Below are positions 5,177 through 40,688 of a stretch of DNA of 40,688 bases, one piece after another. Numbering within the stretch: the stretch's first letter is position 1; every line of letters starts with the position of its first letter. The notes beneath the pieces were generated by a model. That model saw nothing but the letters and a program-made list of their open reading frames with translations, made no database searches and was not told where the DNA came from. A program made the position numbers and the translations under genes. This DNA is from a virus, in the IMG/VR virus record IMGVR_UViG_3300011115_000550, positions 1 to 40,688 of that record; one strand, 5' to 3'.

Positions 5177-5533
5177 CTAACACGCAATACGTGAGAGGAT
5201 GTGCACCTTAGCCAGCGCGCCCCGAAGTCTCTTCACCTCGTCGCGCAGCAGCTCTAATTCGTCTGTGTTTCCTATCTCTGGCTTTTTCATCCGGCGCAAA
5301 CTGTGGATCACCGAGGTATGATGCATACCGAAGACCTTGGCGATCTGCGGTAAACTGTATCCCTGAGCCCGCAGCGTCTCCATCACATCGCGCCGCGCCG
5401 CAACATTAAGCCGGGTGTTTGTGCGCCGCATCGGGTCGGCGCCAAATCTACGCTTTGCGGCCATGATCGCTTTGGTTAGCGAGCCGTGCAAAATAGGTTC
5501 GGAGATGGTGCGGAAAACCGAATCGAGTTTCAT
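5177..5533 (-). CDS. Stand-alone DnaA domain IV-like DNA-binding protein
   Basis: 118 residues starting at an ATG coupled (ATGA) to the upstream membrane-protein gene. Residues 58-82 (QGYSLPQIAKVFGMHHTSVI and following) match the helix-turn-helix and the DHTTVIHS-type signature of DnaA domain IV, the part that reads DnaA boxes. A short coiled coil follows at about 90-110 (ELELLRDEVKRLRGAL). No AAA+ ATPase domain is present, so it cannot melt an origin alone. It may compete with host DnaA, recruit replication proteins or regulate transcription. The fold call is confident; the role is inference. Confidence 0.85.
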   Translation of the reverse strand: MKLDSVFRTISEPILHGSLTKAIMAAKRRFGADPMRRTNTRLNVAARRDVMETLRAQGYSLPQIAKVFGMHHTSVIHSLRRMKKPEIGNTDELELLRDEVKRLRGALAKVHILSRIAC

Positions 5534-5712
5534 GGCCGAACCAAAGTCGCAGCAATAACCACAAACTCGACACCCGCCAGCACCGCAAACCCGAGCGCCC
5601 ACCGTCGCCAGTGCCGAACCCGCGTTCGGTGGATATCGGCCAGTTCAAACGCCGCGAGTGCCATTTCGCCCTGCTGCTCGATCAGAATCATAATGTCGTC
5701 GTAATTGTTCAT
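5530..5712 (-). CDS. Small single-pass membrane protein
   Basis: 60 residues, starting at an ATG overlapping the HNH stop and ending in an ATGA overlap with the DnaA-like gene. Residues 1-33 are soluble with acidic and amphipathic character (NNYDDIMILIEQQGEMAL); an Arg/Trp-rich hinge follows (RVRHWRRW). Residues 39-58 form one membrane helix (ALGFAVLAGVEFVVIAATLV). By the positive-inside rule the N-terminus is probably cytoplasmic. No family recognised. Its place in the early operon suggests host modulation rather than lysis. Confidence 0.68.
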   Translation of the reverse strand: MNNYDDIMILIEQQGEMALAAFELADIHRTRVRHWRRWALGFAVLAGVEFVVIAATLVRP

Positions 5713-6635: not shown

Positions 6636-6687
6636 CACCGGCGCACCTCGATGATGCGGCTCCGGTCGGCCATTTCCTGATCGCTCA
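6635..6687. repeat. 53-bp direct repeat, copy A
   Basis: Matches 7155-7207 with three mismatches (50/53). The repeats flank the heptad-repeat gene, so the gene sits in a duplicated cassette. Each copy encodes the peptide SDQEMAD followed by RIIEVRR and a stop. Confidence 0.9.
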
Positions 6688-6688
6688 C
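6635..6688 (-). CDS. 17-codon remnant frame duplicated from the 34-residue gene
   Basis: GTG at 6688 overlaps the heptad-repeat stop (GTGA) and the frame reads SDQEMADRSRIIEVRR before a TGA. It equals the C-terminal half of the 34-residue gene at 7155-7259, from the 53-bp duplication. It may act only as a translational bridge to the zinc-finger gene rather than as a functional peptide. Confidence 0.35.
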   Translation of the reverse strand: MSDQEMADRSRIIEVRR

Positions 6689-7158
6689 AGGCAGACCAAC
6701 TCAGAAATATCCACTCCCCGCGCCCTGTCTTCATCTGTCAGGTCGCAGTTATCAACATCGCCACTCACCCACGTCAGGTCACCGGTCACCCCGGTCAGGT
6801 CGCCACTGACCCAGGTCAAATTGCCACTCACCCCGGTCAGGTCACCACTGATTTGCGACAAATTGCCCCGGACCCCGGTCAGATCGCCACTCACCCCGGT
6901 CAGATCGCCACTCACCCCGGACAGCTTGCCACTGACCCCGGTCAGGTCGCCACTCACCCAGGTCAAATTGCCACTGACCCCGGTCAGATTACCGGTCACC
7001 TCGGTCAGGTCACCGGTCACCCCGGACAGATTGCCACTCACCCCGGACAGATTGCCACTGACCCCGGTCAGGTCGCCGGTCACCCCGGTCAGATCGCCAC
7101 TGACCCGAGTCAAATTGCCGGTCACAACCCCGAGAACTTGCATTAGTTCCCGCTTCAC
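6685..7158 (-). CDS. Heptad-repeat protein, (S/T)G(D/N)L(T/S)xV repeats
   Basis: 157 residues. After a 12-residue start, residues 13-138 are 17 regular seven-residue units of the type SGDLTGV plus one decayed unit, then a 19-residue acidic cap (DLTDEDRARGVDISELVCL). Leu and Val recur every seven residues with 3/4 spacing, suggesting a regular solenoid or coiled rod, with Gly and Ser/Thr between. The DNA is a 21-bp tandem array. Similar heptad proteins with a GVDIxDL tail occur in other phages as hypotheticals (from memory). GTG at 7158 couples to the 34-residue gene (GTGA). Unit number may vary by recombination. Function unknown. Confidence 0.75.
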   Translation of the reverse strand: MKRELMQVLGVVTGNLTRVSGDLTGVTGDLTGVSGNLSGVSGNLSGVTGDLTEVTGNLTGVSGNLTWVSGDLTGVSGKLSGVSGDLTGVSGDLTGVRGNLSQISGDLTGVSGNLTWVSGDLTGVTGDLTWVSGDVDNCDLTDEDRARGVDISELVCL

Positions 7159-7207
7159 CGACGCACCTCGATGATGCGGCGCAGGTCGGCCATTTCCTGA
7201 TCGCTCA
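7155..7207. repeat. 53-bp direct repeat, copy B
   Basis: Partner of 6635-6687 (three mismatches). It covers the 3' half of the 34-residue gene and is presumably the source copy because it is attached to a full leader and promoter. Confidence 0.9.
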
Positions 7208-7259
7208 TGCCGTCCTCGGCGATAATTTGTACTGCCGTCAGTGTTTCTGTGTTTGTCAT
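7155..7259 (-). CDS. 34-residue leader protein of the heptad-repeat cassette
   Basis: ATG at 7259, AAGGAG 15 bases upstream, stop overlapping the heptad-repeat start (GTGA). The sequence begins MTNTETLTAVQIIAEDG and ends in RIIEVRR; it looks like one amphipathic helix. The start region resembles that of the pentapeptide-repeat protein, which also has TGQIIAEG shortly after its start. It may be a regulatory or coupling peptide. Confidence 0.5.
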   Translation of the reverse strand: MTNTETLTAVQIIAEDGMSDQEMADLRRIIEVRR

Positions 7260-7293: not shown

Positions 7294-7324
7294 ATTATAC
7301 GCCTGCTTGCGCAACATGCGCAAG
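7294..7324 (-). promoter_or_regulatory. Promoter with overlapping TGCGCA palindrome (site a)
   Basis: A perfect palindrome CTTGCGCA-N3-TGCGCAAG spans 7306-7324. On the minus strand its upstream half gives a -35-like TTGCGC, followed after 18 bases by a consensus TATAAT (7299-7294). Transcription would start near 7287 and read the 34-residue and heptad-repeat genes. It overlaps the last codons of the helicase gene. A protein bound to the palindrome would block this promoter. Confidence 0.65.
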
Positions 7325-9292
7325 TAAAATAATGCGATCCGGCACCTGCCGCCGATACTTTGTCAGCAGTCGCAGCCCCAGCGCCGCCTGCCGCGCGGTC
7401 AAATTTCCCTGCTGCGCCAGCGACTTGCCAATCCCGCTGTCAATCCTCGAAAACCCGGCTCCGTCCAGCTCCCGCGCCCCATCACAGCACCCGGCAATGA
7501 TCTGCAGACCCTCGTGGATAGCTGCGATCCGCTCCGGTGTCATCTTCGCCGCCTCCCGGTCGATCTGCGTCCGCGTCGTCTCTTCCGTTGCCGCCCGGTC
7601 CCGCGCAGAGGTCGGAATCACTACCGCCTGCGGTTCCGGCAGCGCGTCGAGCGCCTGGTCCAGGATTGCCTGCTTTGCGACCAGCGTCCGCGCCATGCTG
7701 GCATCAATTGATCCTTCCAGCACCAGGTGTTCGACTGTCACCATGTCGTGCTGGCCGATCCGGTGCGCCCGGTCCTCGCACTGAGTGATGTTGCCGGGCA
7801 CCCAATCCAGCTCAGCGAACACTACGTGTGACGCAGCCGTCAACGTCAGCCCGACACCGGCCGCCTGAATCCCGCCGATGAACACACGACATCCCGCGTC
7901 CGTCTGGAACCGCTCGACCTGCGCCTGCCGCTCCATCACCGGCACTTCGCCGAAGATCACCGCAGCGCCTTCAAACGCCTCGCGCAACCCGTGAATCATT
8001 GCGTGGTGGTGCGCGAACACGATCACCTTGCAGCCCGACTCCAGCACGCCGGTAACGTGCTCGATCACATACGGGATCTTCGCCACTGCCGTATCCCGCC
8101 GCACCTGAGCCATTTCCGTGAACGCCACAGATGCCGCCTTCTTCAGCGTTGCCACCGCGTCGGCGTATTCGTCCGCGGTTCCGGCCTTCGCCAACTCTAC
8201 CGCCAGCCGCGCGCGCTCGATGTCGCCCTCGTTACGCGCCCAGGCCTCCTGTTCGCGCTCGATTGCGTCCGATGCGCCGTTCGCCGCGATCTCGATCACC
8301 GAGCGCCGCTTCGCCGGCAATTCCTTGAGCACATCCCGCTTCAGCCGCCGCACCATGATCGACGCCCGCAGCTTCTTCTGCAACTCGTCAAGGTGAGACG
8401 ATCCAGACATATCCCACCCGTAGCCGTTTTCCTGCGCCGCGCAATATCGTTTCGCGTAGCTGAACAGGTTCCGGAACTCGCCCGGGTTCAGCGCGTGAAA
8501 CAGCGGGAACCCTTCGATTGGCCGGTTCGGAATCGGTGTCCCGGTCAGGAACACCCTTCGCCTCGCTGCTATTGGCAGCACCTCCGGTTTGGCTGGCGTC
8601 TTCTTCTTCGCCTTCCGCGCGGGCTCGCCGAGAATGGCCACCGTGCGCTTCGCCAGCGGATTCTTCATATAGTGGGCCTCGTCGGCGATCACCATATCCC
8701 AGTGCACTGAGCGCAGCGCGGCCGCGTGCCGGTCGGCGACGTCGTAATTCACGATCAGGATGTCGCCGAACACCACCGGGCAAAATGAGCCTTCCGCGAT
8801 CACGATCTGGAACGCGCGGACCAGCCAGCGGTTCAGTTCGTTCCGCCAGTTCACCTTCAAACTGGCCGGGCAAAAGATCAGGATCCGCTGGATGGTCGGG
8901 TCAGAATTTATCACGCCTATGGCCTGAACGGTCTTTCCGAGCCCCATCTCGTCGCCAAACAGCACGTTTGTTCGCGCCAACGCGAATGCAATCCCGGCCC
9001 GCTGGTACGGCAGATAGGCCAGCCCATCCGGGCAGGGAACATCCACGTCTGGCGCATCATCCGCCCGGGTCAACACCACCGCCGCGGCCCGTTCATCTGC
9101 CGCCTTTGCGTTTGCGGCTTCCAGCGCCTGAACCGCGGCCGAGTCGCGCAATGTGTCGGCCTTCGCCGCGCTGTCGGTCCACCAGTATTTGTTTATGCCG
9201 TCCCACCGGAATCCAGCCGATTTCGGAACGGCGCGTTCGTCATAGCTGCAGCGGGCGATAAACCGGCTGCCTTGTTTTACGATTTGCACCAT
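7295..9292 (-). CDS. SNF2-family helicase/translocase
   Basis: 665 residues. An N-terminal small domain (about 1-50, FIARCSYDERAVPKSAGFRW) resembles the DUF5710/HARP-like segment seen before such helicases. Motif I is GDEMGLGKT at 113-121, the DEAH box lies at 204-207, motif III is LTGTPIPNRP, and motif VI is QCEDRAHRIGQ, as in SMARCAL1-type annealing helicases. These use ATP to move on duplex DNA and remodel forks. It is the only helicase seen, so it probably works in phage replication next to the candidate initiator. A palindromic operator-like site lies 11 bases upstream of its start, and another overlaps its 3' end. Confidence 0.93.
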   Translation of the reverse strand: MVQIVKQGSRFIARCSYDERAVPKSAGFRWDGINKYWWTDSAAKADTLRDSAAVQALEAANAKAADERAAAVVLTRADDAPDVDVPCPDGLAYLPYQRAGIAFALARTNVLFGDEMGLGKTVQAIGVINSDPTIQRILIFCPASLKVNWRNELNRWLVRAFQIVIAEGSFCPVVFGDILIVNYDVADRHAAALRSVHWDMVIADEAHYMKNPLAKRTVAILGEPARKAKKKTPAKPEVLPIAARRRVFLTGTPIPNRPIEGFPLFHALNPGEFRNLFSYAKRYCAAQENGYGWDMSGSSHLDELQKKLRASIMVRRLKRDVLKELPAKRRSVIEIAANGASDAIEREQEAWARNEGDIERARLAVELAKAGTADEYADAVATLKKAASVAFTEMAQVRRDTAVAKIPYVIEHVTGVLESGCKVIVFAHHHAMIHGLREAFEGAAVIFGEVPVMERQAQVERFQTDAGCRVFIGGIQAAGVGLTLTAASHVVFAELDWVPGNITQCEDRAHRIGQHDMVTVEHLVLEGSIDASMARTLVAKQAILDQALDALPEPQAVVIPTSARDRAATEETTRTQIDREAAKMTPERIAAIHEGLQIIAGCCDGARELDGAGFSRIDSGIGKSLAQQGNLTARQAALGLRLLTKYRRQVPDRIILLAHVAQAGV

Positions 9293-9302
9293 GCCCTAAT
9301 TG

Positions 9303-9319
9303 TTGCGCAAAGTGCGCAA
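9303..9319. promoter_or_regulatory. TGCGCA palindrome upstream of the helicase gene (site b)
   Basis: TTGCGCA-N3-TGCGCAA in the 31-base gap between the initiator and helicase genes. A -35-like TTGCGC is present, but I see no convincing -10 before the ATG at 9292, so it may be an operator acting on read-through or on helicase translation rather than a promoter. Confidence 0.6.
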
Positions 9320-10107: not shown

Positions 10108-11151
10108 TTATGCCATCAATCCCGCGCGTCGAGCCAAACCCGGCTTGTAAACCTGCGCGATGTACTGCGACAGCGCAAACGGGATTTTGGCGATTTTCGC
10201 GCTTGCGGCCTTGCGTGCGTTGGAACGTGAATTGAAAAGAGAACCGGCACCATGCGGCTTACCCTTTACCAATCCACCGGTAAACCCTTTACTTCCGTCA
10301 TTTTCAATGGCGTTAAGTATTTGCGACGCGCGGTCGCCGCCGATCTTCAGCCCGTCCGCTTCTATGCCGCAGTCCCGCGATGTGAACCGGGCACCTTTGC
10401 CGACATCCGTGCGCCGGCCGGTTTCGCTGGCAACCTTGATACCATCTAGCGGATTCTGTTTTTCGGTATCCGAACGGCCATCGTTCAATCGCGGCGTCTC
10501 GCGATCGCGCCATAATCTTTCGCTGGCTGAACCTTTCCATTTCACTCCTTCATCCAGCGCGTTGCGCCCCAGCGGCCCAGTTCCAACTGGCAGATGCTCA
10601 TGCAGCAACTTGCGCTGCCCGTACTTCAGATCGTCCATCGCACGCTTCGCCTTCGGACGCCCGATCGGCATCAGCGCCGGTACGTCGCCCCATAAATGGA
10701 AACTCCCGAAGTTCCACTTGCTGCGACCAACCCACGGCTGTGCACCACGGACATTTTCGACCACCATCGGAATGTGATGCCCTGCTGCTTCCGACGCCTC
10801 CCGCTGAATCCGAAAGCACGCGTCGAACAAGCGATTGTCCGGCCCTTCGGTTTCCCATGTCAACCGCAGAGCCTTAGCCGCCTTCGAGTTGTTCGGGTCT
10901 TTCGACCGGCTCCACGGCATCGCCAACCAACTGTACGACTGGCATGGTGGCGACGCGACGATGCAGTCCGCATCTCTGAACATGGATCCGTGGATTGTGA
11001 GCACGTCCTGAACCACAAGCTGCGCCGGGTACTTGTCATCGCCGTACCGGTGCCGCGTGATGTCAAAGCCGATCACGTCGTAGCCTTCGGCAAGGAAACC
11101 TTCGGACCATCCTCCGAGCCCGCAGAATAGGTCGATACACAGCGGTTTCAC
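10108..11151 (-). CDS. DNA (cytosine-5) methyltransferase
   Basis: 347 residues from GTG 11151, which overlaps the upstream stop (GTGA) and begins immediately before motif I. Motif I (DLFCGLGGWSEGF, near residue 6) binds SAM; motif IV (SPPCQSYSWLAMPW, near residue 60) contains the catalytic Cys; motif VI is VVENVRG. The C-terminal half is long and irregular, fitting a target-recognition region. Orphan phage enzymes of this kind methylate phage DNA against host restriction; no cognate nuclease is visible. It lies downstream of the DUF1064 nuclease-like gene. Confidence 0.93.
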   Translation of the reverse strand: MKPLCIDLFCGLGGWSEGFLAEGYDVIGFDITRHRYGDDKYPAQLVVQDVLTIHGSMFRDADCIVASPPCQSYSWLAMPWSRSKDPNNSKAAKALRLTWETEGPDNRLFDACFRIQREASEAAGHHIPMVVENVRGAQPWVGRSKWNFGSFHLWGDVPALMPIGRPKAKRAMDDLKYGQRKLLHEHLPVGTGPLGRNALDEGVKWKGSASERLWRDRETPRLNDGRSDTEKQNPLDGIKVASETGRRTDVGKGARFTSRDCGIEADGLKIGGDRASQILNAIENDGSKGFTGGLVKGKPHGAGSLFNSRSNARKAASAKIAKIPFALSQYIAQVYKPGLARRAGLMA

Positions 11152-11576
11152 GCTCGCTCCATCTGCGCCACGTCGGCCTTCGTCCACTCGACAAACCGGA
11201 CGTCTGGAAACATGGCCCGCGCCATCTTTGCTTTCATTTTGTACATTGCCGTCTTTGCTCCCTTTGCATCGACCGCAGTATCCACGCCGTCGAGCACAAA
11301 CCGGAAATCTGATTTGTACACCGTCTTCCGAATATTCATGCCCGGGTTGCCGGCAAAGATCACAAACACCGGCTGCAGCTCCAGCCGCGAAATCTTGCCA
11401 CACCGCTCCCATAACTTCAGGATCACGTAAGCCCGCGCCTCCAGTTTTGACTGGAAGGTGATGCCGTCAACTGCTTTCGTGCGGTTCCGCATCTTGGAAA
11501 CAGGCAGCGCATCCGATCCGAACGGGTCCGGTCGGCCCATATTCCGGTACAGCTGCGCTGCCTGCTTCGTGGTCAT
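11148..11576 (-). CDS. DUF1064 family nuclease-like protein
   Basis: 142 residues. The stretch VDGITFQSKLEARAYVILKL, then LELQPVFVI, YKSDFRFVLDG and VDAKGAKT has the order of the DUF1064 family: an early Glu, then Asp and DxK, as in PD-(D/E)XK resolvase-like nucleases. Candidate acidic and Lys residues are E in SKLEA, D in KSDFRF and DAK. Likely a recombination or Holliday-junction nuclease acting on phage DNA. ATG at 11576 overlaps the upstream TAA by one base. Family call good; enzymatic activity inferred. Confidence 0.85.
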   Translation of the reverse strand: MTTKQAAQLYRNMGRPDPFGSDALPVSKMRNRTKAVDGITFQSKLEARAYVILKLWERCGKISRLELQPVFVIFAGNPGMNIRKTVYKSDFRFVLDGVDTAVDAKGAKTAMYKMKAKMARAMFPDVRFVEWTKADVAQMERA

Positions 11577-12142: not shown

Positions 12143-12524
12143 TTCGTTTCTCCTTTTGTCGTTCCTGCAACTTCAAGATGGCGTCCTGCGCCTGATCGGG
12201 TGTCATCGTCCCGATCTCAACGTGCCCGCATACTGCCTTGAGCACCATATACCGTTTTCGCTGCGTCAGTTTCTCCGCGGTGCCGATGTCCCGCAGAACC
12301 GCGTGAATTCGAGCCCGCAGCCTGCGAAGGTGCGGGCTCGCCATCGTTCCTGCTGGACGCGCCAGAGGATCACCGTGCCGCGTGGCAACGTAGGAATCGC
12401 AGCCAGGGTATCCGGTGCAGACCCATAAGTTCGCGCGCCCCTGAGCCGTGTCCCCATAGATCTCGGTGGGATCTCGAAGCACGGACGCTGAACCGCAATA
12501 CGGGCACACCGGGCCGGTGGTCAT
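12099..12524 (-). CDS. DUF3268 zinc-finger protein
   Basis: 141 residues. CPYCGSASVLRDPTEIYG (Cys7, Cys10) followed by LWVCTGYPGCDSYV (Cys36, Cys42) and a PHLRRLRARIH helix is the pattern of DUF3268 zinc-finger-containing phage proteins. The second half (KLTQRKRYMVLKAVCGHVEI onwards) is helical and basic at the end. ATG at 12524 overlaps the Gp157 stop (ATGA). Probably nucleic-acid binding in DNA metabolism; exact role unknown. Confidence 0.85.
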   Translation of the reverse strand: MTTGPVCPYCGSASVLRDPTEIYGDTAQGRANLWVCTGYPGCDSYVATRHGDPLARPAGTMASPHLRRLRARIHAVLRDIGTAEKLTQRKRYMVLKAVCGHVEIGTMTPDQAQDAILKLQERQKEKRIANKKANMQTSLSA

Positions 12525-13159
12525 TCCACCCTCAGATGTTCGCCGCGCGGGTCCAGCCGGGCTCCCGGTACTCCCTGCTTCCCGGTTCCGCCGCAGTGTG
12601 CGCACATAATGTCAATCGCTTGGCACATGGGACACACAGCGTTCAGACTTGATCGGATCGATTCGATGTTCGGCAGGATCTGGCCGCCGCAGGTCGTCAT
12701 TTCCGAGCCAGCCCGGTCCAAAAGATCCGCCCAAGCCGATAGCGACATCTTGACCACGATGCTTTTGTACTCGTCAGGCAATATAGAGACATCTGTCACC
12801 GTCACCGGTGCGACGCCACCGTTCGCCTGGATGCGGAAGCGGCCCGTCTCCCCTTCCAGCTTCCGCAGCCCAAACGCCTGCATGATGCCGAGTACGGACG
12901 CATTCAGCCGGTCCCGGCGTGATTCCCACGCCTTCGCCCGCTGCGATTGCACCAGCGCCTCAGCCTTCGCCACTGCCGCCTGTGCATCGCACGCCCGGAT
13001 GTACCGGCGCACTCCGTCTACCTTGCGGACCTCGGCCCCTGCGTACTGCTGGATCGCTTCCTCTGCCGCCGTTATTGCTTCGGCCCCTTCCGCTTCCTGC
13101 CACGCCGTCATCAGTTCGTGGATGCCGGCCTCGATGTCGAATAACGATAATGCGCTCAT
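12521..13159 (-). CDS. Gp157-like protein with C-terminal zinc fingers
   Basis: 212 residues. Residues 1-100 form a long helical region rich in Ala, Glu and Arg ending in RDRLNASVLGIMQAFGLRKL, then ETGRFRIQANGGVAPVTVTD, the arrangement of the siphovirus Gp157 family (reported to be associated with phage resistance in streptococcal systems). The C-terminus adds a DnaJ-like CPMCQ...CAHCGGTGK zinc module. Start ATG overlaps the ParB-like stop. Expected in the early replication/recombination block; biochemical role unknown. Confidence 0.82.
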   Translation of the reverse strand: MSALSLFDIEAGIHELMTAWQEAEGAEAITAAEEAIQQYAGAEVRKVDGVRRYIRACDAQAAVAKAEALVQSQRAKAWESRRDRLNASVLGIMQAFGLRKLEGETGRFRIQANGGVAPVTVTDVSILPDEYKSIVVKMSLSAWADLLDRAGSEMTTCGGQILPNIESIRSSLNAVCPMCQAIDIMCAHCGGTGKQGVPGARLDPRGEHLRVE

Positions 13160-15065: not shown

Positions 15066-15454
15066 CAATATCCGCCGCCGTAATCTTCCGCGTCACCAGG
15101 CGCCGCACCGCCCGGCTTCGTGTAGCGTGACCAGCCGCGGTTCGGCAGCCAGGCGTCATCGTCGCCCTTGCGCTTCGGAAACAGCCCTCCGCCCTTCTTA
15201 CTTTGGCCGAAAGCCAGACGCGCGTTGCACTTGCGCTCCCGGTCGTCGAGCGTGCGGCAGGCCAGCTCGAAATACTCGTAGTCGCCAACCAGCCGGTGCT
15301 GGAGCACCAGTTCCTGCCCACCGCAGACGCCGCAGGTCCGGTCAGCCTCGAACACATCCTGCACGCCCGCGATGGCCTTAAAAACGTCTCTAATTGTTTC
15401 GCCGGCGACCTCAAACATGATCTGCCCGGATCTCGTCTTATACTGTGCTTTCAT
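15065..15454 (-). CDS. Zinc-binding hypothetical protein, single-stranded-DNA-type tail
   Basis: 129 residues. Residues 41-44 (CGVCGG) plus later Cys in FELACRTLDDRERKCNAR make a four-Cys zinc site. The final 40 residues are Gly/Asp/Pro-rich, ending in DAEDYGGGY, an acidic flexible tail like that of single-strand binding proteins. I recognise the general type in phage early regions but not its biochemistry. Starts in an ATGA overlap with the gene upstream. Confidence 0.72.
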   Translation of the reverse strand: MKAQYKTRSGQIMFEVAGETIRDVFKAIAGVQDVFEADRTCGVCGGQELVLQHRLVGDYEYFELACRTLDDRERKCNARLAFGQSKKGGGLFPKRKGDDDAWLPNRGWSRYTKPGGAAPGDAEDYGGGY

Positions 15455-15771
15455 CTTTTCCCCTGTTGTGCTGCTTCTTTTTCTGCCTGCCTGCGCCTAA
15501 CTTCCCGAACCGAATCCATGACCTGCTCGAAGCACCAAGCGTATAGGTCCGCGCTGGTAGAATCCCGGTCGCCCTCCAGGCACTGAGCCTTCTGCGAACA
15601 GAAGAAATCCATGCTCTGATAGTTGCCGAGGTTCAGCTTGAACGAAACGCTGCGGACGATCTCTACCGTGCGCTCCGGTTTGTCAGGTTGTGGTGGTTTG
15701 GGTGTTGCGATGGTACCGTCGTCAAAATATCCGAACGGGTCGAACTCTACTGCGGAACGGAGTGCATCCAT
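15451..15771 (-). CDS. Hypothetical early protein under TGCGCA-palindrome promoter
   Basis: 106 residues. Acidic N-terminus (FDPFGYFDDG), a Pro-rich linker, then a beta-like core (VEIVRSVSFKLNLGNYQSMD) and a basic C-terminal helix (VREVRRRQAEKEAAQQGKR). No family recognised. It is the second gene after the RHH regulator, and its likely message starts at or next to its ATG, with operator site c immediately upstream, so it may be co-regulated with the RHH gene. Confidence 0.7.
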   Translation of the reverse strand: MDALRSAVEFDPFGYFDDGTIATPKPPQPDKPERTVEIVRSVSFKLNLGNYQSMDFFCSQKAQCLEGDRDSTSADLYAWCFEQVMDSVREVRRRQAEKEAAQQGKR

Positions 15772-15777
15772 ATCTGA

Positions 15778-15808
15778 ATATTACTACACTCTTGCGCAAG
15801 CTGCGCAA
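15778..15808 (-). promoter_or_regulatory. Promoter with overlapping TGCGCA palindrome (site c)
   Basis: Palindrome TTGCGCA-N3-TGCGCAA at 15792-15808. Minus-strand -35 TTGCGC (15808-15803) is followed by GTGTAGTAATAT, giving a TAGTAA or TAATAT -10 box. The last -10 base is only about six bases from the ATG at 15771, so the message would be leaderless. GTGTAGTAA is also found beside site e. Confidence 0.6.
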
Positions 15809-15810
15809 CT

Positions 15811-15963
15811 TTATTTGATGTTTTTGGCAATCAGGTCCGCTACGAACTTGGTGCCGCTCATGCCGGCTTTCGCCGCCGCAACGTCGATTTTTAGCCGCAG
15901 GCCCGGTGTTACAAAAACGGACATCTTAGTCTGTGGTGTGGGAGGTTTCGGCGCTTTGCTCAT
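15811..15963 (-). CDS. Ribbon-helix-helix DNA-binding regulator
   Basis: 50 residues from ATG 15963. After a Pro-rich arm, residues 13-18 (KMSVFVT) form the DNA-reading beta strand, followed by helix A (GLRLKIDVAAAKAG) and helix B (SGTKFVADLIAKNIK). This is the minimal Arc/CopG fold. It opens the early operon right after the strong terminator, and its own promoter carries two TGCGCA sites. RHH dimers commonly bind short palindromes in tandem, so it is the best candidate to bind the TGCGCA palindromes elsewhere in the genome. An upstream ATG at 15996 would put translation through the promoter and is rejected. Confidence 0.8.
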   Translation of the reverse strand: MSKAPKPPTPQTKMSVFVTPGLRLKIDVAAAKAGMSGTKFVADLIAKNIK

Positions 15964-15965
15964 AC

Positions 15966-15992
15966 TGCGCAAGTGTAGCATGTTTTGCGCAA
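15966..15992 (-). promoter_or_regulatory. RHH promoter with two TGCGCA sites (site d)
   Basis: Extended -10 box TGCTACACT at 15980-15972, eight bases from the ATG, so the transcript starts about two bases before the gene. TGCGCA occurs at 15966-15971 and 15986-15991, 20 bp apart (two helical turns), bracketing the -10. The T-run of the adjacent terminator covers the -35 region. The layout suggests autoregulation. Confidence 0.6.
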
Positions 15993-15994
15993 AC

Positions 15995-16056
15995 AAAAAA
16001 AAGCGGCCACCGGATTACCAAACCTCGGAGGAAGGATTTGGTTGCCGGTGGCCGCT
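15995..16056 (-). terminator. Strong rho-independent terminator after the tail/lysis operon
   Basis: A 12-bp perfect outer stem AGCGGCCACCGG/CCGGTGGCCGCT with an imperfect inner arm, followed on the minus strand by eight T then GTTT. It lies just after the last late gene and directly before the RHH promoter, cleanly separating late from early transcription. Confidence 0.9.
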
Positions 16057-16089
16057 CGGGGCACAACGCGGGAGCGTGGCTCCTGAACT

Positions 16090-37098: not shown

Positions 37099-37689
37099 TC
37101 ACCCCCGCACCACCACCAGATTAGTCTGGTTCACCAAAGTGGCCCGATACCCGGCCGCCGTTGCCGCGCCCAGCAACTCCGTGGTTCTGCTGTCGTGCTC
37201 CACGCAAACGCACCGCGGAAAGTGCCCGATGTGCAGCATGTGCAAAAACAGGTTCGCCGAGTGCCCTTCCGCGTCGATGTTCCAAAAGTCGAACCCGCCG
37301 AACTGGTCCGCGATCTGCTCCAGCGTGATCGCCGGGACCATCAGCGAGCCTCGGAACTTCGCGATCCCCTTCCACCGCTCGTATTCTTCCGGGTTGCTGG
37401 TGCTGACCGCATCGTCGGTCACCTGTAGCGTCTGGATGCCGAGCCGCACCGCCGCGCACGCCTGCAGTAACTTGATCCGCCTGTCGTCCCCGTAGGCGTC
37501 AAGCAGCGTCTGCATCGGCCCGGGCGACGGCTCAATAATCAGGCCACCCCAACCCACTTCGTACAGCGCCCGCGTGTTCGAAAACACAAGCGGATTCCAG
37601 CCGCCGATGTCCAAAAACAGGCCCGGTGCCGCGCCTTCGAATGCGTCAAGTATTGCGGCCTGCTCGCCGCTCTGTGAATAATCCTGCAT
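37099..37689 (-). CDS. FkbM family SAM-dependent methyltransferase
   Basis: 196 residues from ATG 37689, preceded by GGAGG. GLFLDIGGWNPLVFSNTRAL is motif I for SAM; GLIIEPSPGP follows; ITLEQIADQFGGFDFWNIDA and EGHS match the FkbM C-terminal motif (DVEGxE type). These enzymes O-methylate sugars or lipids, fitting methylation of a phage-made fucose. It is preceded by operator-like site e, so a separate promoter may drive it and the downstream transferases. Confidence 0.9.
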   Translation of the reverse strand: MQDYSQSGEQAAILDAFEGAAPGLFLDIGGWNPLVFSNTRALYEVGWGGLIIEPSPGPMQTLLDAYGDDRRIKLLQACAAVRLGIQTLQVTDDAVSTSNPEEYERWKGIAKFRGSLMVPAITLEQIADQFGGFDFWNIDAEGHSANLFLHMLHIGHFPRCVCVEHDSRTTELLGAATAAGYRATLVNQTNLVVVRG

Positions 37690-37710: not shown

Positions 37711-37735
37711 ACTACACTTTGCGCAGATTGCGCAA
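37711..37735 (-). promoter_or_regulatory. TGCGCA palindrome promoter-like site (site e)
   Basis: TTGCGCA-N3-TGCGCAA at 37719-37735; on the minus strand TTGCGC can be a -35 with GTGTAGTAAC 15 bases later as a -10 region. The GTGTAGTAA tract matches site c. It lies in the 49-base gap before the FkbM gene, the only intergenic site of this kind in the glycan island. Confidence 0.6.
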
Positions 37736-37738
37736 GCT

Positions 37739-38338
37739 CTACCGCTGGAAATACATTGGCGCAGGGTATCCAAGCGCCTCGGTTACGGCTTGCCGACATC
37801 CGGTCAGGTGGTAATCGTCCACGATAACCCACCCGCCCTTCGACACCTTCGGCACCAGCGCGTCCACGCAGGCCTTCGTGCTCTCGTACAGGTCGCCGTC
37901 AAGCCGAAGCACCGCAATCCGTCCGATGTCAGCGCCCGGCACCGTGTCCGCGAACAGGCCCGGGTGGTAGACCAGCATATCGTCCGTTATGCCCCACTCC
38001 CGCATGTGCTCCTGAACCGCTGCCAGCGTGCAAGAGCTCAACCCGGCTTCGTGCCCGGCTGCCAAAAACTCCGCATCGTTCGGACCAGCTGCAGGAATAC
38101 CGGCGAAGGAATCGAACAGGTGAACACGCCGCTCGCTTCCCGTGTTCATGATCGCGCGAGCCATCGCTGCAGCCTGCGCACCACCGAACACCCCGCACTC
38201 AACAAAGTCGCCGGGCACGTCAGCTAGAATCGCAGCCAGCGCGGTAGAGTAGCTGGCCCAGACCGTCTCCCGGCTGGACAGCGCCGCCAGTGCCACGTTA
38301 TTCATCCAGGCTTCAAACGGCCAATGGATGATGCTCAT
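37739..38338 (-). CDS. TylF/macrocin O-methyltransferase family protein
   Basis: 199 residues from ATG 38338 overlapping the fucose synthase stop (ATGA). DFVECGVFGGAQAAAMARAI is the SAM loop; VLRLDGDLYESTKACVDALV and GGWVIVDDYHLTGCRQAV are the diagnostic motifs, with Asp residues that bind the metal. TylF-type enzymes O-methylate deoxysugars (macrocin in tylosin), so methylation of fucose or a fucosylated glycan is likely. Confidence 0.9.
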   Translation of the reverse strand: MSIIHWPFEAWMNNVALAALSSRETVWASYSTALAAILADVPGDFVECGVFGGAQAAAMARAIMNTGSERRVHLFDSFAGIPAAGPNDAEFLAAGHEAGLSSCTLAAVQEHMREWGITDDMLVYHPGLFADTVPGADIGRIAVLRLDGDLYESTKACVDALVPKVSKGGWVIVDDYHLTGCRQAVTEALGYPAPMYFQR

Positions 38339-39303
38339 AGTTCGGCCTCCGTCACATCCACCTTCACGATTTCCTTCTGATCCACAATTGATTGGATCCC
38401 GTGCTCCAGTGGAATCCGCGGTGCCCATCCCATTCGAGTTATCCGGCTCACATCCAGCAACTTACGCGGTGTCCCTTCCGGCTTCGTCGTGTCAAAAACT
38501 ACGTCTCCCGTGTACCGAGTCGCCCGCGCGATTATCCCGACCAACTCCCGAATGGTCATGTCTTCGCCGGTGCCGACGTTGATGATTTCCCCAGAATCGT
38601 AGTCCTGCATCAGCATCACAGCCGCGCGCGCAAAGTCGTGAGAGTGCAGAAACTCCCGCCGAGCGTTCCCCGTGCCCCAAACTCGCACGACTGGCAAACC
38701 ACGCCGCCGCGCGTCAATGAACCGGTCGATCAGGTCAGGGATAACGTGGTCTGACTTGTCGCCCGGCCCGTAAAGGTTGGTTGGCATCGCGCAGATTGCG
38801 TTGAACCCGTATTGTGTCCGGTATGCCTGCGCCATCTTGATTCCGGCAATCTTAGCCACCGCATACGCCTCGTTCGTCGGCTCCAGCGGGCCGGTCAATA
38901 GTGCGTCCTCGCGGATCGGCTGTTCCGCCATCCTCGGGTAGATACAAGACGAACCAAGCAACAACAGTTTTTTTACGCCGTGCTGCCGGGCCGCGTGGAG
39001 CACGTTCGCCTGAATCATCAGGTTGTCGTAAATGAAATCAGCCGGTCGCGTGCTGTTCGCCATTATGCCGCCAACCGTCGCCGCGCACAGAAACACGTAC
39101 TCCGGACGCTCCGAGGCGAAAAAATCGTTTGCTGCTCGCTGGTCCCGAAGGTCTAGCGTCCATTCCCATGTCGGCATCATCGCGTTTGAGATATGAGGAG
39201 CTAGGATTACCTGATAGTGCCCCTCCCGCGCCAACTCTGATCTGATTGCCGAGCCCACCAGGCCCCGGTGCCCGGCGACAAAGATTTTGCTGTCCAGCTT
39301 CAC
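38335..39303 (-). CDS. fcl: GDP-L-fucose synthase
   Basis: 322 residues from GTG 39303, which overlaps the gmd stop (GTGA) with AAGGAG five bases upstream. Rossmann loop GHRGLVGSA at 11-19; GSSCIYP near 118; YAVAK with catalytic Tyr147 and Lys151; [20 protein letters not shown] near the end. Converts GDP-4-keto-6-deoxymannose to GDP-L-fucose with NADPH. Directly downstream of gmd, as in bacterial colanic acid clusters. All catalytic residues present. Confidence 0.95.
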
Positions 39304-40295
39304 TGCGACTCCTTCTTTGCCAGTGCCAGATCGTGATCGATCATACGTTCCACCATCGCCCCAAACGAAATCTTGGGAATCCACCCCAGAACGGCCCGCG
39401 CCTTGCTTGCATCACCCCGGAGGTCATCTACCTCCGAAGGCCGAAAATACCTATTGTCTATTTGGACACAAGATGGACCTAACTTCAACCGTTCCGCTGA
39501 TCGCAATAGAAACTCAAAAACTGTGTGGGACTCTCCCGTCGCCACGACGTAATCATCCGGCTGCTCCTGTTGCAGCATCAGCCACATGGCCTCCACGTAA
39601 TCCGACGCATGGCCCCAATCCCGTATAGCGCTAAGATTACCCAGGAACAGCTTATCCTGGAGCCCGCATTTGATTCGCGCCAGGCCCCGGGTAATCTTTC
39701 TGGTGACGAACGTCTCCCCGCGACGCTCCGATTCGTGATTGAACAGGATCCCGTTGCAGATGAACATCCCAAACGCTTCGCGGTAGTTCACCGCATACCA
39801 GTGCGCCGCCACCTTGCTTGCCGCGTAAGGGCTGCGCGGTGCAAATGGTGTTTGCTCGTTCTGTGGTGCAGGTTGGTTCCCGTACATTTCCGAAGACCCC
39901 GCCTGATAGAAGCGAACCTGCCGTCCGCTGCAGTCCTGATGATCTCTCACAGCTTCCAGTAGCCGCAGCGTCCCGGTTGCCACCACATCGGCAGTGTATT
40001 CCGGTTGGTCGAAACTGACGCGAACATGGGACTGGGCCGCAAGGTTGTACACCTCATCCGGTTTCGCCTTCTCGACGATCCGCCGCAGGCCGGTCCCGTC
40101 AGTCATGTCTCCGTAGTGCAGAGTCAGCCGGTTGTCGGGCTCGTGCGGGTCCATGTAGATACCGGCCAGGCGCTGCGTGTTGAAACCTGACGCGCGCCGC
40201 ACAATCCCATGCACCTGATAGCCCTTCCCAACCAGCAGTTCAGCCAGGTACGAACCGTCCTGTCCGGTGATCCCCGTTATCAGAGCGCGTTTCAT
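39300..40295 (-). CDS. gmd: GDP-mannose 4,6-dehydratase
   Basis: 331 residues. NADP loop [13 protein letters not shown] at 7-19; AGSSEMYG with Ser134/Glu136 near 132-139; PYAASK with Tyr157 and Lys161 of the YxxxK catalytic set. It makes GDP-4-keto-6-deoxy-mannose, the first step to GDP-L-fucose. Length is slightly short but complete. ATG overlaps the glycosyltransferase stop by four bases. The phage copies the host pathway's first two steps to make its own donor sugar. Confidence 0.96.
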
Positions 40296-40688
40296 GCGAT
40301 GGGCTCGTGACCGGGAAACCAGGCCGCTTTCCGAGCCTCAAAGATGCGCTTGTACCTGTGCCATTCCTCGTGGCTGTTCGCGCGTTCCAGAAACGCCGGC
40401 ATCCGGTCAGCGTTGCCGCGTTCCTCGCCGGGCCGCGGCCGGCCCCAGTGGTCGTGATAGTGCGTGAGGTCTGGACGCTGCCAAAAGACGCCAATCTTTT
40501 CGGCCACCGCCTGCAGTTCCTCATCCACGCCCATGTGCGTGTATTCCGGCCAATACGGTCCCCGCCCGCCGTACATGCGCCGGGCAAACTCGCGTCCGAT
40601 CCACGGGCTGCCGGCCACTCGGTCGATGTAGGCTCCGTCTTTGTCGCCCCAGCGGTCTCCGGTCGGCTGCATCACGCCGAATGATGAA
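40292..40688 (-). CDS. Glycosyltransferase, C-terminal part (continues from base 489 through the ends)
   Basis: The C-terminal half of the gene described at 1-489. An internal ATG at 40675 is not a separate start; the protein reads through the duplicated end. It ends WFPGHEPIA at the stop, which overlaps the gmd ATG. The [14 protein letters not shown] stretch may supply a metal-binding or catalytic His. Confidence 0.78.
40562..40688. repeat. 127-bp terminal direct repeat (right copy)
   Basis: Identical to 1-127; an assembly overlap marking a closed circle. Confidence 0.93.

Follow-up and report, generated by a model that had tools for sequence, protein, structure and literature searches.

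Ribbon-helix-helix (RHH) DNA-binding proteins act as dimers that place a two-stranded ribbon in the major groove. Arc and Mnt of phage P22 are phage-encoded RHH repressors that operate within one immunity region. MetJ and CopG are autoregulated and place two dimers on adjacent short palindromic boxes about 8–9 bp apart. The geometry of RHH–DNA complexes has been described (PMC3325190). RHH regulators are also encoded by archaeal viruses: F55 of Sulfolobus virus SSV1, which maintains viral dormancy and recognises tandem 8-bp repeats located in early promoters or next to them; SvtR of SIRV1; and AvtR of AFV6, which has eight potential sites. Most virus RHH regulators known to date act as repressors, but AvtR can both repress and activate (PMC5569661). 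Dispersed operators are represented by the stoperators of mycobacteriophages L5 and Bxb1, where one repressor serves many asymmetric 13-bp sites that share one orientation and lie mostly outside promoters (PMC6550527).

The window analysed here, i.e. the whole stretch of DNA under study, is a record of 40,688 bp from a soil phage with its main genes on the minus strand. It encodes a 50-aa protein that, on comparative sequence grounds, very probably controls the phage's genes as a master regulator that also limits itself, since this phage and at least 14 relatives pair an RHH protein with a box at the −35 position of many promoters, its own included. Like F55, SvtR, and AvtR, it is predicted to be a small viral RHH protein that acts on several promoters of the virus besides that of its own gene. 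Those proteins, however, belong to archaeal viruses and promoters and read an unrelated box, whereas the box described here lies within a bacterial −35 element and is common to many phages. Arc is among the closest folds to the window protein, but Arc and Mnt are confined to one immunity region while the window boxes are spread over the genome. Adjacent boxes about 8–9 bp apart and sites in the own promoter are shared, at the sequence level, with MetJ and CopG, which control cellular or plasmid genes through different boxes and have no phage-wide promoter set. The dispersal of many sites over a phage genome for one, here putative, repressor resembles L5 and Bxb1. Their repressor is unrelated, and in contrast to asymmetric stoperators mostly outside promoters, the boxes of the window group are palindromic and promoter-bound, 30 of 95 being located at −35 with 17/18 bp spacing. 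In the open-licence literature, TTGCGCAA was found mainly as eukaryotic C/EBP sites and otherwise in unrelated contexts, and no published account of gene control in this uncultured soil phage group was found there.

Genome and probable host

The window carries an exact direct repeat of 127 bp at its termini (1–127 and 40562–40688), and both ends carry pieces that match a single orthologous gene of several relatives. The phage genome is therefore probably complete and circular in the assembly, with a unique length of about 40.56 kb. One contig of the phage group defined by portal homology was binned with an Acidobacteriia genome. The host is probably an acidobacterium, and promoters of such hosts are little studied. 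A 141-aa protein encoded at 5177–5602, near ParB-like and methyltransferase genes, contains a DnaA domain IV or HTH-like segment and is possibly a second DNA-binding regulator or an origin binder.

The 17-bp palindrome and the promoter of the RHH gene

Exact copies of the palindrome TTGCGCA-N3-TGCGCAA are located at 7307–7323, 9303–9319, 15792–15808, and 37719–37735, the four positions given in a sequence-only reading of this DNA; the 40,688 bp contain no further copy. The count in shuffled genomes by which that reading proposed to check the motif gave none in 100 dinucleotide shuffles of the window. Among all dyads with 7-mer arms and gaps of 0–12, this palindrome is the most repeated one in the window (shuffle maximum, 1). 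Every site of the set is intergenic or directly ahead of a start codon. The term ‘genome-wide’, used in the same reading, has to be narrowed. It stands for the four exact sites together with the variant pair at the RHH promoter; the 6-bp TGCGCA by itself occurs in the window at chance frequency. Also, the exact 3-base gap holds for all four 17-mers but is peculiar to this phage, the family-wide signature being TTGCGCA plus TGCGCA boxes; the exact 17-mer was absent from 24 relatives and then from 39 further phage records. Isolated 17-mers or 16-mers elsewhere in IMG/VR are mostly chance occurrences and alone do not predict an RHH gene.

The 50-aa RHH regulator gene (MSKAPKPPTPQTKMSVFVTPGLRLKIDVAAAKAGMSGTKFVADLIAKNIK; 15811–15963, minus strand, ATG at 15963) was recognised by profile, AlphaFold, and Foldseek. 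Its promoter reads TTGCGCAA-AACATGC-TACACT-TGCGCAGT-ATG. The TTGCGCAA box (15985–15992) lies between the −35 and the −10 (TACACT). A second site, TTGCTCATACTGCGCAA (15956–15972), is a one-mismatch 17-mer with TGCGCA at 15966–15971; it is located just past the −10 and covers the predicted transcription start and the first RHH codons. The TGCGCA pair that had been placed 20 bp apart at this promoter is indeed present, at 15966 and 15986. One relative (G039) shares this layout, TTGCGCAA-AACCATG-TACACT. A strong intrinsic terminator (15994–16062, minus strand; −38.2 kcal/mol, z −7.1, followed by U8) closes the late side and separates the late operon from the RHH gene, which begins just downstream.

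Predicted target promoters in the window

Putative operator a (17 bp, 7307–7323) forms a TTGCGC-N18-TATAAT promoter, and its predicted target encodes a repeat-rich, LbR_Ice_bind-like protein with a weak minor-head PHROG match (6685–7259, minus strand). Operator b (17 bp, 9303–9319) is located directly 5′ of the start codon of an SNF2-family helicase gene (7295–9292, minus strand); in G014, a gene identified as helicase-like from motifs read by eye is also preceded by a TTGCGCAA box. Operator c (17 bp, 15792–15808) lies on the −35 of the promoter for a conserved early gene (15451–15771, minus strand), the first of a series of early and recombination genes that includes a Gam-like (12521–13159) and a resolvase-like gene (11148–11576). 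Operator e (17 bp, 37719–37735) lies on the −35 of a leftward promoter upstream of the structural operon. The first gene ahead of the structural genes (portal, protease, capsid) is methyltransferase-like (37099–37689, minus strand); it had no match in Pfam and was judged FkbM-like by eye from the segments FLDIGGW and FDFWNIDAEGH.

Since sites a, b, c, and e each stand ahead of an operon or gene, boxes precede most major leftward transcription units. The target list of the sequence-only reading is retained for the RHH gene, the helicase, the early gene, and the repeat-rich gene. It was corrected for the glycan island, because the sugar genes (37739–40295) lie upstream of leftward promoter e; site e instead faces 37099–37689 and the structural operon. 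This island in the late region comprises genes for a TylF-type methyltransferase, which has orthologues in some relatives only, and two nucleotide-sugar dehydratases/epimerases.

Family membership and fold of the 50-aa protein

The AlphaFold model of the window protein (pLDDT 87) contains helices at 20–33 and 37–48 and an extended N-terminal stretch; in this model, which is of a monomer, the beta strand is unassigned. The top Foldseek matches were nearly all RHH proteins (prob up to 0.97, E ≥ 0.3), the nearest solved folds being Arc, PutA, CopG, AmrZ, and RHH antitoxins (E above 0.3). E-values that high are usual for 50-residue proteins. The family profile reaches RHH structures with a best E of 0.005. 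Taken together, the model, Foldseek, and the profile agree with the RHH arrangement of one beta strand and then two helices within about 45 aa, and the gene's own promoter has the tandem or palindromic operator boxes, at the sequence level, expected of this class. The strand [KR]-x-S-x-[FYL]-V is for the most part conserved across the family, including the K/R-x-S-x-F residues; by analogy with known RHH proteins, alternate residues of this strand are predicted to face DNA.

The window protein had no match among the named family models of Pfam, NCBIfam, and PHROG. As a lone query against IMG/VR, the phage records, and the relatives, it retrieved nothing significant. The Pfam model RHH_1 misses most family members; the protein of one relative (G067) passes it and also fits the window family profile. 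In 399 acidobacterial genomes, the profile gave weak matches only (best E 8e-6). The function of a 50-aa gene that is invisible to family databases thus becomes assignable once the regulators and operators of several relatives are compared.

Co-occurrence of the box and the RHH gene

Relatives were collected by portal homology, and 48 related phage records were surveyed for RHH genes. Several relatives carry many TTGCGCAA boxes although the exact 17-mer is absent. In G014, a 61-aa ORF between two such boxes was the best match to the window protein, insignificant when taken alone. A profile made of these two members revealed further short RHH proteins, each with a box or near-variant at its own 5′ end, and an eight-member profile revealed a ninth protein (E 1.9e-11) with a box 38 bp ahead of its gene. 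The family is present in 14 of the 48 records, the window protein being joined in the profile by 13 other phage proteins; the weaker matches are those in G067, G035, and G071 (E 1e-5 to 2e-3).

RHH-positive genomes contain 95 copies of TTGCGCAA in 612 kb, of which 32 are at −35/−10 spacing, against 10 copies in 658 kb, none at this spacing, in the 18 RHH-negative genomes read. At least four sites were present in 12 of 14 RHH-positive versus 2 of 34 RHH-negative records (Fisher p about 1e-7), and TTGCGC or GCGCAA lies within 60 bp of the own start in 11 of 14 RHH genes versus 70 of 572 (12%) other genes (p 5e-8); these p-values are optimistic, because development of the profile and of the box drew in part on the same genomes, and gene starts in all counts are predicted ones. 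The two site-rich RHH-negative records (G045 and G070) are partial contigs of 29 and 25 kb. The three remaining RHH genes carry the variants TTGCGAAA, TTGCGTAA, and TGAGCACGTGC. Variant boxes, TTGCGCA-YR-TGCGC instead of TTGCGCAA, are required for G035 and G056 to fit. The box of G067 sits within a longer open frame, and some TTGCGCAA copies in RHH-positive phages are intragenic.

The RHH label is scattered on the portal tree, with about nine changes, at least six of them forced by well-supported branches. Shared ancestry alone therefore does not explain the association, with the reservation that this tree represents one gene and not the whole genome and that phage modules recombine. A further genome, L491, found via RHH protein similarity alone, has TTGCGC-N17-TACAAT ahead of its RHH gene and contains 7 boxes within 20 kb, a check made after the pattern was already known. 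The link between box and RHH protein, proposed earlier from the window alone, is borne out by their joint presence and absence across phages and by the boxes in the RHH genes' own promoters. The resulting fifteen natural pairs of a protein and its putative operator, which differ in residues, box sequence, and spacing (8 vs 9 bp), are a data set on how RHH proteins read DNA.

Promoter position and box spacing

In the non-coding DNA of the group, TTGCGC is the hexamer most associated with a −10 at 16–18 bp (22 of 124, p 4e-13); TTGACA is hardly used. The distance from TTGCGCA to TAnnnT in RHH-positive phages peaks at 17 and 18 bp, with 21 and 20 cases on the coding strand and 2 and 3 on the other. 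The −35 overlap first noticed for sites in the window is accordingly a rule across RHH-positive phages (41 coding-strand cases vs 5). A second box, if one can be recognised, is 8 bp away from the first in 20 of 56 promoters (at least 5/6 matches), other spacings accounting for 0–2 each. The 9-bp spacing was seen in two promoters only, both in the window, and it is this spacing that gives the window its 17-mer. The earlier idea that tandem half-palindromes suit two RHH dimers is supported by the second box being 8 bp off in relatives and 9 bp off in the window.

Half of the box promoters in RHH-positive relatives (25 of 50) have the predicted start codon 33–41 nt past the initial T of TTGCGC. 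Start codons at or beside the expected transcription start suggest that leaderless mRNAs may be common in these phages. TAGTAC or a similar hexamer often adjoins the 5′ side of TTGCGC in G005, G040, G042, and G052 (TTTAGTACTTGCGCAA). TAGTAC, which is one of the hexamers most enriched in the group's non-coding DNA, is possibly an operator extension or a separate element.

Mode of regulation

In the scheme that we favour, the 50-aa protein would serve the phage as its own RHH transcription factor, with the TTGCGCA/TGCGCA boxes as operators. A pair of its dimers would occupy two neighbouring TGCGCA boxes, 9 bp apart here and 8 bp apart in most relatives. As the upstream box takes the place of the −35, binding would block RNA polymerase. 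The units shut off would be the helicase, the early and recombination genes, the operon below 7.3 kb, and the structural operon, and the protein would limit its own expression from its own promoter. We regard it as likely, with good though not full confidence, that a phage-encoded autoregulated RHH repressor of this kind occludes the −35 of most major transcription units. Physical binding, repression over activation, and a use in timing or immunity are what we infer. Repression appears to fit best the own-promoter boxes of the window, G035, and G005, which lie in the spacer, beside the −10, or over the transcription start. For the window promoter, this placement away from −35 at the same time counts against the general scheme. 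Occlusion with autoregulation would also be the most economical interpretation and is in keeping with the archaeal virus proteins F55, SvtR, and AvtR.

The protein could conversely be an activator, the box substituting for a missing −35 and the bound protein recruiting RNA polymerase at a certain stage. T4 MotA recruits RNA polymerase in this way at its own box. The almost invariant placement of the box at −35 (17–18 bp), the scarcity of TTGACA, and the extended −10s at some promoters (G056) are in line with this. We consider it unlikely, given that those three own-promoter boxes suit occlusion better and that viral RHH regulators are so far mainly repressors, AvtR being capable of both (PMC5569661). 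The boxes might instead be read by a factor of the host, or by a host sigma factor with a preference for TTGCGC, with no part for the RHH protein. TTGCGC does occupy the −35, and the probable acidobacterial host has little-studied promoters, but the boxes are concentrated on the RHH genes' own promoters and vanish in RHH-negative relatives, presumably with similar hosts, so that this reading was rejected as very improbable. An antitoxin function, with the other boxes coincidental, is hinted at by weak matches to Pfam Antitox_RHH in half of the members tested (5 of 10). The search for a toxin family next to the RHH gene was negative, however; the neighbour at 15451–15771 has no family match and is not a toxin partner, because its orthologues also occur in RHH-negative relatives, and with sites spread across many promoters a toxin–antitoxin pair was dismissed as hardly credible. 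Chance or composition would account for TGCGCA alone and for most 17-mers elsewhere in IMG/VR, but is practically negligible for the boxes in view of the shuffles, the comparative counts, and the 17–18 bp peak. A partition site was also rejected: the boxes are at promoters and unclustered, and no ParA neighbour was recognised.

A more far-reaching reading, which we put forward tentatively and think doubtful as a whole, is an undescribed family of RHH master regulators whose operator took over the −35, such that polymerase and regulator share one set of eight bases at most promoters, with box spacing (8/9 bp) co-evolving with the protein, which is possibly a promoter-selectivity factor (activator). 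The protein, operator, targets, and spacing variants make up a testable transcription circuit for a large uncultured soil phage group, probably of acidobacteria.

Integrase genes and phage lifestyle

Neither a tyrosine integrase nor a serine recombinase, such as a genome with the lysogeny repressor of an integrating phage would be expected to encode, was detected in any RHH-positive record tested. Since, in addition, the portal-homology group is almost absent from bacterial genomes, a role in lytic timing is somewhat more likely than one in integrated lysogeny; extrachromosomal lysogeny may still be compatible with integrase absence. The RHH-negative relatives G001 and G015 (L167–L169, L189–L191) carry a tyrosine integrase, and temperate RHH-negative members may use a different regulator.
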